From Actinomycetota bacterium (lineage in GTDB: Bacteria; Actinomycetota; Actinomycetes; Nanopelagicales; Nanopelagicaceae): a DNA stretch of 34,500 nt. Under the pieces are notes generated by a model, which was not told the origin of the DNA, did no database searches, and saw only the letters and a list, made by a program, of their open reading frames with translations. How positions within the stretch are numbered: the first letter of the stretch is position 1; the number at the start of each line of letters is the position of its first letter. A program made the position numbers and the translations under genes. Of this stretch, positions 13,358-15,660 are shown piece by piece. The stretch spans positions 1 to 34,500 of the forward strand of contig JAPLBB010000021.1 in assembly GCA_026392945.1 (NCBI GenBank), given 5' to 3'.

Positions 13358-14092
13358 CTATTCGTTAACTGCAATTCCGTCTTCGTTAAAATCAATCACC
13401 GATGCTTGGTCAAAGAAGTCATCATCTCTTCCAGATAAGGCTTTAATTCGCTCCTGTTCAGCACTCCACTGTCCGGTTGTAGTCAAATCAATAATTCTCT
13501 TACTTGGAACTGCTTTAGCTGAAGTCGTATAAACCGGTTTAGGAATTTGAGTGGGCTGCCAGCCTTTACGATCTTTTGGCACGACCACTACGCCAGTAAT
13601 TTCTTCTCGCTCAGAAAAAGGAATCCAATGTTCGTTAGAACTTTTCTCATTAACTTGCTCCGGAATAACTGTGGTTGGAATCTTAGTATTAGTAATTTTT
13701 GCAATTGCTTTAAGTTTACGACTCTTAAGCTGAGATGCTACAACTTGCTTTCTAACATTTACAAAATAAATTAATGTTGCAGAAAGTGGCACAAGTGTTG
13801 TTGTTAAAGATAGAAATCCTATTGCAGTTGAAATTAATGAAAGTATGTAGAGTGAAAAAAGTGAACCAAATATTAATCTGCGTTGGAAGAAAATCTTATT
13901 TTGATCTTCAAGTTTAGCTTCACTCTGAATTGAGCCGTTATTTTCAGCAACTACTTGCATTGCATTTTTATATCTTTGAATTGCTTTACCGGAATTTTCT
14001 TCATGATTACTCAACCACTGGGGTAGGAAGTAGGCAGCCCACATTCCCATGATGATTAAGTAGATAAAACCGGAACCCATAAAGCACAACAA
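13358..14092 (-). CDS. SepX/GlpR-like division-associated membrane protein (start may be internal Met at ~14080)
   Basis: N-terminal TM FIYLIIMGMWAAYFLPQWLSNHEE resembles the actinobacterial SepX/GlpR N-terminus; further TM pair in the middle; located next to RimJ and MoeA/Glp-like genes as in Streptomyces/Corynebacterium/Mycobacterium. Confidence 0.65.
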   Translation of the reverse strand: MLCFMGSGFIYLIIMGMWAAYFLPQWLSNHEENSGKAIQRYKNAMQVVAENNGSIQSEAKLEDQNKIFFQRRLIFGSLFSLYILSLISTAIGFLSLTTTLVPLSATLIYFVNVRKQVVASQLKSRKLKAIAKITNTKIPTTVIPEQVNEKSSNEHWIPFSEREEITGVVVVPKDRKGWQPTQIPKPVYTTSAKAVPSKRIIDLTTTGQWSAEQERIKALSGRDDDFFDQASVIDFNEDGIAVNE

Positions 14093-14147: not shown

Positions 14148-14708
14148 TTATTTAATTTCTGGGTTTTCCTTTACGAAAGTTATGTGATCGCGCCAATCAC
14201 CAGCAATATGCAGGTATTTATTTCTAGCGCCCTCCAACAAATAACCAGCTTTTATTGCAACCTGTTTTGATGCCTCATTTTCTGGTCGCAAATTAATTTC
14301 AATGCGGTGCAATCTAAGATTTTCGAAACCAAATTTTGTAAGTAATTTAACTGCTCGAGTGGTGTAGCCACGGTTGGAATATCTCTGATCAATCCAATAA
14401 CCAATGTGAGCCCCTCGCATCGCGCCAAAAATTATCCCACCAAGTGTTATTTGGCCAATCAATATCTGCTCATTATTTTCTTTTAACCAAATTCCAAGAG
14501 AAATAGATCTAAGTGCTTTCATTTCTTTATTAAGTTGCATCACCATTCCATAATAAGAAGGAAGAGGTGAATTGTGATCGATGTTTGGTCTGGTTGCCTC
14601 CCATGGTGAGAGCCAATCCCGATTAACTGCTCTAACTGAATCCCATTGGGTTTTATCTCTAAATCTAATTGCTTTCAAAGTTAGTTCGTGTTCGACCAAC
14701 TTTCTCAT
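14148..14708 (-). CDS. GNAT family N-acetyltransferase (RimJ/RimL-like)
   Basis: 186 aa; QTWL/WLSPWEATRP, GQITLGGIIFGAMRGAHIGYWIDQRYSNRGYTTRAVKLLTKFGFENLRLHRIEINLRPENEASKQVAIKAGYLLEG. Confidence 0.9.
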   Translation of the reverse strand: MRKLVEHELTLKAIRFRDKTQWDSVRAVNRDWLSPWEATRPNIDHNSPLPSYYGMVMQLNKEMKALRSISLGIWLKENNEQILIGQITLGGIIFGAMRGAHIGYWIDQRYSNRGYTTRAVKLLTKFGFENLRLHRIEINLRPENEASKQVAIKAGYLLEGARNKYLHIAGDWRDHITFVKENPEIK

Positions 14709-15616
14709 GATTGAACCTGATTAATCATTACTAGATTCACAGATTCACCGGCTGCAACTTTTTCTATTTTTTCACCTAACGAGATTAGGCAGGTGGCGTT
14801 TGATAAGGTGGAAATTAAATCTTGATGTGTTAGTGGAACTGCTTGACCATCTTCATTAATGACAGCTCTTACATAACTGCTTTGGCCAGAAGTGGAGCTA
14901 ACGGCTTTGCTTAACTTAGCTTTCTTACCTGGTCGATAAATCTCAGATTTTGCAAGCATTTTTAAAATCATAGGTCTAATAAATAACTCTGCTGAAAGGT
15001 AATTACCTATTGGGTCCCCCGGTAATGTGACAACTGGAGTTTTATCTGGACCAATTAATCCATAATTATGCTTTCCGCTTTCCGCAAGATTTGGTGTAAC
15101 AGTTGTTATTTCACCCAACTTAGATATTAACGAAGTGATCAGATCAAAAGATTCATCTTTAGATTCTCCACTAATAACAATTAGATCTGCTCTTACTAAT
15201 TGGTCCTCGATAATTGCTTGTAGTTGCTCACTTGTTTCAGCAATTATATGAACGCGAAATGCATGGGCGCCAGCTTCTCTAACAAAGGTAGTTAAGAACC
15301 AGGAATTACTCTCATACTCATCTTCTTCACTAGCTAATGTACTTCCAGGTTCAACTAAGTCATCACCAGCACTAATTATTACTACCCGAGGATGTGGTCG
15401 ACATGGCAGGCGATCTAAACCTAGCGAGGCAGCTAGTGCTATCTGTGTTGAGCCAACTCGTTGACCACTTTTAATCACAACCTTGTCATCTACTAATAGG
15501 TCGCTAGCCAAAGTAGCTCCATGCGCATCAAGTAGCGGTAGGTCTAAAGCTGAGAGCGGCGTGCTTAAGCCAAGTAGACGCTCAAGTAGTTGCTCGACAG
15601 AGATCGCTTCTTCCAT
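14705..15616 (-). CDS. MoeA/Glp (gephyrin-like) protein, shortened and lacking catalytic motifs
   Basis: 303 aa; N-terminal SVEQLLERLLGL..LPLLDAHGATLASDLLV, RPHPRVVIISAGDDLVEPGSTL, VVTLPGDPIGNYLSAELFIRPMILKMLA align with MoeA; FDNSAMDGY domain absent. Confidence 0.85.
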   Translation of the reverse strand: MEEAISVEQLLERLLGLSTPLSALDLPLLDAHGATLASDLLVDDKVVIKSGQRVGSTQIALAASLGLDRLPCRPHPRVVIISAGDDLVEPGSTLASEEDEYESNSWFLTTFVREAGAHAFRVHIIAETSEQLQAIIEDQLVRADLIVISGESKDESFDLITSLISKLGEITTVTPNLAESGKHNYGLIGPDKTPVVTLPGDPIGNYLSAELFIRPMILKMLAKSEIYRPGKKAKLSKAVSSTSGQSSYVRAVINEDGQAVPLTHQDLISTLSNATCLISLGEKIEKVAAGESVNLVMINQVQS

Positions 15617-15660
15617 ACCTAAACCCTACTTCGCCCCCGCCATAAATTAAGGTAAGGGGC

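Follow-up and report, generated by a model that had tools for sequence, protein, structure and literature searches.

A naturally shortened Glp without domain II in most genomes of the family Nanopelagicaceae

Background

A survey of how MoeA evolved, published in 2025, holds that all MoeA proteins closely resemble each other in their four domains and that at least two copies have been systematically retained in Actinobacteria (PMC11733289). The Glp protein of Corynebacterium glutamicum (Cgl0883; PDB 8bve/8bvf; NF045515) has all four of these domains, domain II corresponding to residues 46-145, and carries a Pro-rich hinge 2 that has been described as a Glp signature (PMC10522489). Both FtsZ and GlpR bind near the hairpin of domain IV, at the centre of the dimer and not at domain II, and neither is bound when residues 362-371 are replaced by a glycine (PMC10522489). 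In gephyrin, the deltaSDII construct still dimerises and binds receptors, but it no longer forms filaments, undergoes phase separation or builds synaptic clusters (PMC12441120).

Here we describe a gene for a three-domain Glp, found in a window of 34,500 nucleotides (the whole stretch of DNA analysed) from a genome of the family Nanopelagicaceae (G000). The protein shares with C. glutamicum Glp its clade, hinge 2, domains I, III and IV, the linkage to rimJ and glpR and an eroded Mo site, and differs from it in the lack of one domain and in a shorter FtsZ/GlpR-binding hairpin. With E. coli MoeA (Pfam MoeA_N, MoCF_biosynth and MoeA_C) it has in common its ancestry and the fold of domains I, III and IV. 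The domain removed is equivalent to that deleted in deltaSDII gephyrin; the latter is, however, a eukaryotic protein engineered in the laboratory and unable to cluster receptors, whereas the short Glp is natural and conserved in most of its family. A search of the open-access literature for a MoeA or Glp without domain II found no case, which does not prove that none exists.

Results and discussion

A single block corresponding to domain II is missing

The short glp gene (14705..15616, minus strand) is an uninterrupted open reading frame of 303 amino acids with an ATG start, encoding domains I, III and IV of a Glp/MoeA protein. Pfam MoCF_biosynth matched at residues 80-217 and MoeA_C at 232-295, while the match to MoeA_N, a model of 160 positions that comprises domains I and II, was confined to its last 23 positions. 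In the alignment with E. coli MoeA, residues 5-41 correspond to 8-45 and residues 45-297 to 147-403. The multiple alignment shows one large missing block, equivalent to positions ca. 40-150 of C. glutamicum Glp or 47-144 of E. coli MoeA, that is, from about 98 residues (E. coli) to 111 (C. glutamicum). This block is domain II together with a few connector residues. At the excision junction (codons 42-43; 15488..15493, minus strand), as placed by the alignments and the structural model, the domain I strand TLASDLLV is fused straight to DKVVIKSGQ.

An AlphaFold model of the protein alone (pLDDT 91.5, pTM 0.87) confidently predicts a Glp fold minus domain II, in which a tight two-strand turn (strands 40-42 and 45-48) closes the cut ends of domain I. 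Among solved structures, C. glutamicum Glp, 8bve, is the nearest in sequence; it was also the top Foldseek match (TM 0.86 over the query), its alignment exceeding the query by about 100 columns.

The protein is a variant of Glp under purifying selection

In gene trees the Glp clade, including the short Glp, stands apart from E. coli MoeA and from the separate MoeA proteins of the family (support 100/98). The best model for the short Glp is NCBIfam Glp (NF045515), at 222 bits against a curated cut-off of 475. Of the Pro-rich hinges that link domains I and III, hinge 2 is present as RPHPR (15386..15400, minus strand), and both of its prolines (P182 and P184 of C. glutamicum) are found in 107/107 short Glps, P182 being found in 0/10 separate MoeAs; hinge 1 could be aligned only in part. 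The four-domain architecture of Glp is not met. Because domain II is absent and the score falls below the cut-off, the short form is a variant of Glp and not a standard member.

The gene is under purifying selection. Its median dN/dS is 0.09, similar to that of its neighbours, a value that is approximate with synonymous sites near saturation, and residues P74, P76, R77, N104, D138, R142 and D144 are invariant in 42 aligned proteins.

Gene neighbourhood and putative division partners

A rimJ-like gene for a GNAT N-acetyltransferase of 186 amino acids (14148..14708, minus strand) shares 4 bases (14705-14708) with the 3' end of glp and lies, as a conserved feature, between glp and the gene for the membrane partner, glpR/sepX (13358..14092, minus strand). 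The assignment of the latter is putative, resting on NCBIfam SepX_GlpR_2, its best model though below the cut-off (1.4e-20, 74 bits against 150), and on the family alignment. Its frame opens with TTG at 14092, relatives start at an ATG found in the window at 14080, and this ATG is probably the true start, giving a protein of 240 amino acids. GlpR consists of TM1, a short linker, two further TM segments and a C-terminal motif W-x-P-x-x-x-P-x-P-x-Y; TM1, an ERYKSAM block and the W-P-P-P-Y motif are kept across the family, as is the position of the gene. The linker between TM1 and TM2 has about 45 amino acids, compared with 192 residues in IDR1 of C. glutamicum GlpR. Short-Glp loci show the order glp-rimJ-glpR without exception wherever the contig reaches far enough. 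Since short Glp and GlpR both score below their NCBIfam cut-offs, automatic annotation would probably miss the two of them.

The domain IV beta-hairpin (residues 246-261; 14834..14881, minus strand) is the counterpart of the FtsZ/GlpR-binding hairpin of C. glutamicum, with a shorter tip. The FtsZ-contact residues M361, R362 and Y369 of C. glutamicum are not conserved in short Glps, the window protein having N at 361 and a gap at 369. The other actinomycete Glps sampled do not conserve M361 and R362 either, and the stretch from M361 to Y369 is of doubtful value as a criterion outside Corynebacteriales.

As for FtsZ, the C-terminal tail is of the AEDEIDIPDFMR type in most short-Glp genera, including the genome of the window (G000:C40, L182; relatives in L162-L190). 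It reads EDEIDIPDFMR-like, versus the usual DDLDVPDFLK (genus g5, L183), the changes at key positions being conservative (L to I and V to I, with P and F kept). The early-branching genus g9 (L184), which has a short Glp, keeps DELDVPDFLK, so that the tail probably changed after domain II was lost. A coupling between the two changes, which we considered, is unsupported for the same reason.

Catalytic residues and the Moco pathway

Most molybdate- and MPT-binding residues are gone from the short Glp, besides domain II. D59, T100 and D142, which lie in domain II, are missing in 107/107 short Glps, E188 is replaced by D in 103 of the 107, and the GGVS motif, KPGKP and the QGSH loop, all present in E. 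coli MoeA, are lost. SGESKDESFD (15143..15172, minus strand) is the degenerate counterpart of the MoeA motif GGVSVGxxD, and LPGDPIG (15005..15025, minus strand) that of LPGNPVS, the N300 to D change being present in 98/107 short Glps. Of 19 positions scored, taken from the active site of E. coli MoeA and from motifs close to it, short Glps kept about 6 on average, as did the window protein (6). By contrast, the full-length Glps of genera g5 and g14, which form the sister clade and share the GlpR neighbourhood, have four domains, 19/19 positions intact and moaC adjoining glp, and are the only MoeA homologue in those genomes of the two genera that have MoaC. Across the class, 44 full-length copies kept 17-19 of the 19 positions with moaC adjacent and 6-14 without it (one exception, 18); the loci scored for adjacency include L051-L064 and L204-L233. 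Since the state of the active site tracks moaC adjacency, we infer that Glp commonly acts as a functional Mo insertase, whose catalytic half decays once the gene is relieved of that duty, and that in many Actinomycetes it is probably bifunctional, as Mo insertase and divisome protein. In many nearly complete genomes of the class, a Glp whose gene is adjacent to moaC is the only MoeA_N protein.

No MoaC, MoeA_N, MoaA or Mo enzyme of the PF02738 type was found in the genome of the window or in any of the 24 genomes of the same genus, and the short glp is the sole PF00994 match in the former. The enzyme search was limited to PF02738 (xanthine-dehydrogenase type), leaving DMSO-reductase and sulfite-oxidase types outside it, and the genome is 84.6% complete; these absences rest also on closed relatives. 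Within these bounds, neither the genome nor its genus shows a complete MoeA or a Moco pathway. Compared with E. coli MoeA, the short Glp therein lacks its pathway partners.

In the 296 genomes of the family, MoaC and MoeA_N occur together in 75 and are both absent from 209, the 12 discordant genomes being mostly incomplete assemblies (Fisher 8e-56). In one genome of genus g5 (G028), MoaA and two enzymes of the xanthine-dehydrogenase type accompany Glp, which is the only MoeA_N protein there. About a quarter of the genomes have the Moco pathway, mostly with a separate MoeA, which in short-Glp genomes bears domain II and forms its own clade. It follows that loss of Moco and loss of domain II are not the same event, and that genome-wide Moco loss was no precondition. 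The loss of domain II as a plain result of Moco loss was accordingly rejected as a full account: families f5, f11 and f12, without MoaC, keep a full-length though decayed Glp, and Moco exists alongside a different MoeA in many of the genomes with a short Glp.

An earlier note, written from sequence alone, had claimed that some 90-100 residues are missing without a frameshift, that GGVS has become GESK and LPGNP has become LPGDP with KPGKP absent, and that a catalytic Mo-insertase role is unlikely. The first claim held (98-111 residues, uninterrupted frame, a single block in the alignments with Corynebacterium Glp and E. coli MoeA, and a confident predicted fold), as did the motif claims, and domains, residues and pathway all support the last. 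A full Moco pathway with Mo-enzymes and no other moeA would have refuted it; in the genome of the window this condition does not hold, as MoaA, MoaC and PF02738 enzymes are absent. That some short-Glp genomes run Moco through a separate MoeA goes beyond what the note had foreseen.

Distribution and number of excisions

The short Glp is found in 21 of the 24 same-genus genomes, among them three closed genomes of 1.2 Mb, the three without a match being incomplete. A Glp match was obtained in 283 of the 296 genomes of Nanopelagicaceae, and in 279 of these the gene carries no MoeA_N domain, the usual size of the short protein being 296-312 amino acids. Closed genomes among the carriers are G001, G005, G014, G032 and G039. 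MoeA_N is present on Glp only in G028, G042 and G053 (genus g5) and G037 (g14); a fifth full-length copy, in G124 (g5), is broken by a contig end. Because the short form recurs in family genomes, closed ones included, an assembly error or in-frame sequencing deletion, which would have refuted the earlier reading, is ruled out. The possibility that domain II is encoded elsewhere as a separate piece is likewise ruled out, there being no MoeA_N match in the genome or its genus.

Two kinds of unusual records were also observed. In L141:5001-5923 (a record named Clavibacter sp. BS5) and G010:C1:45633-46531, glp is split in two overlapping frames, probably by sequencing frameshifts, although real breaks are possible. 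Short Glps of the Nanopelagicaceae type, 57-73% identical to the window protein, also occur in public MAG records that carry the titles Bifidobacterium breve or Streptomyces griseus (L072, L074, L080, L090 and others), names that are probably wrong.

In a Glp gene tree from which the domain II columns were left out, all sampled short Glps of Nanopelagicaceae fall in a single clade (100/100), and the full-length Glps of g5 and g14 are its sister group within a family clade (100/99). Domain II was therefore lost in one event within the family, in the ancestor of most of its members.

A class-wide draw of 326 genomes, in which matches were listed only to about E 1e-42, contained a single genome with a short Glp outside Nanopelagicaceae (G415, family f39, 1.5 Mb). 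This Glp has 307 amino acids (L234:6072-6995), lacks the equivalent of C. glutamicum residues 38-144, and is encoded in a locus of order galU-glp-rimJ-glpR (with a SepX/GlpR match) without moaC. In the tree it joins a full-length Glp, that of G424, from a sister genus of its own family f39 (100/92). A common origin with the short Glps of Nanopelagicaceae is not rejected by the gene tree alone (AU p 0.115), so that independence rests on tree plus taxonomy and on one genome; on this basis G415 probably represents a second excision, likely an independent one. In G415 (L234) and G424 (L235), galU lies between the gene for 5-FTHF cyclo-ligase and glp; galU is absent from the 44-base interval 15617-15660 of the window.

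Proposed origin and function

We favour, as the probable explanation, that the protein is orthologous to Glp, that its domain II was excised in one piece, and that it now serves as a dimeric scaffold for GlpR and FtsZ without a part in Mo insertion; the dimer, the binding and the absence of insertion are all inferred. The ancestral Glp would have been a working Mo insertase, encoded next to moaC, with an intact active site and as sole MoeA, like those of g5 and g14 now. With Moco gone, or with the task taken over by a separate MoeA, the catalytic half of Glp would no longer have been selected; the active site would have eroded and domain II been excised, excision being the extreme outcome of release from Mo duty. 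The short Glp homodimer would dock through domain IV on GlpR and the C-terminal tail of FtsZ at the septum, as in C. glutamicum, and would not insert Mo. As domain II is half of the MoeA active site and the filament interface in gephyrin, the dimer is most simply predicted to be a receptor-FtsZ bridge without an SDII polymer. Against this reading, the FtsZ-contact residues of the hairpin are unconserved and its tip is shorter, and binding, localisation and phenotype are inferred.

The earlier note had also proposed a structural or divisome role and a partner gene two genes away. The latter held, the product of 13358-14092 (minus strand) matching SepX/GlpR, with its start probably at the ATG. 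The former is supported by orthology, hinge 2, gene order, selection and fold, FtsZ and GlpR binding remaining inferred. The finding is broader than the note had it: the three-domain Glp is selectively maintained and nearly family-wide, its shortening being ancestral to most of the family and apparently recurring elsewhere.

A bolder reading can also be put forward, namely that domain II was excised at least twice from an originally bifunctional cytoskeletal scaffold, that the divisome role is that of a pure receptor-FtsZ bridge without the SDII filaments on which gephyrin depends, and that many Glps of Actinomycetes are still insertase and divisome protein at once. We advance it only tentatively, the balance tipping slightly against it; if true, its last part would contradict the published generalisation.

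Alternative explanations

The alternative that survives best, though we consider it unlikely, is that the short Glp is septal but no longer binds FtsZ, being a GlpR-bound or RimJ-linked scaffold with some other partner. In its favour, contact residues and hairpin length differ from those of C. glutamicum, the FtsZ tail is altered in most short-Glp genera, and rimJ always sits between glp and glpR. However, the tail changes are conservative at key positions, other actinomycete Glps likewise do not conserve the contact residues, whose loss therefore does not set the short form apart, and FtsZ and GlpR are both retained.

It could also be that the short Glp still takes part in molybdopterin or nucleotide chemistry, as a reduced Mo insertase or as a new enzyme on the MPT fold of domain III, as in MogA or CinA. 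The domain III fold and the LPG(D/N)P turn persist, and some relatives have a Moco pathway. Nevertheless, this is very improbable: half of the active site has gone with domain II, as have GGVS, KPGKP and QGSH, the genome of the window is without MoaA, MoaC and PF02738 enzymes, and relatives with Moco carry a separate MoeA with domain II.

That the gene is a decaying remnant drifting to loss without present function, as the eroded motifs, the missing domain and the split or frame-broken copies of two assemblies (G010, L141) might suggest, is largely refuted by selection (dN/dS ca. 0.09, like the neighbours, with core residues invariant in 42 proteins) and all but excluded, the frame being open in nearly every genome of the family, including streamlined closed genomes of 1.2-1.6 Mb.

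Conclusions

Sister genera with a sole Glp of intact active site, together with the short-Glp genera, offer a clean before/after pair within one family, in which it can be asked whether the division function of Glp needs domain II, Mo chemistry or SDII-type polymerisation. Planktophila, a member of Nanopelagicaceae, can be grown in axenic culture (PMC12381374). The short Glp is a natural counterpart of deltaSDII gephyrin, which splits receptor binding from filament formation. In most of an abundant freshwater family Glp has three domains and is often the only MoeA-like protein, as against the published statements that four domains and two or more copies are the rule (PMC11733289), and this suggests that domain II and its Mo chemistry may be dispensable for the role of Glp in cell division.
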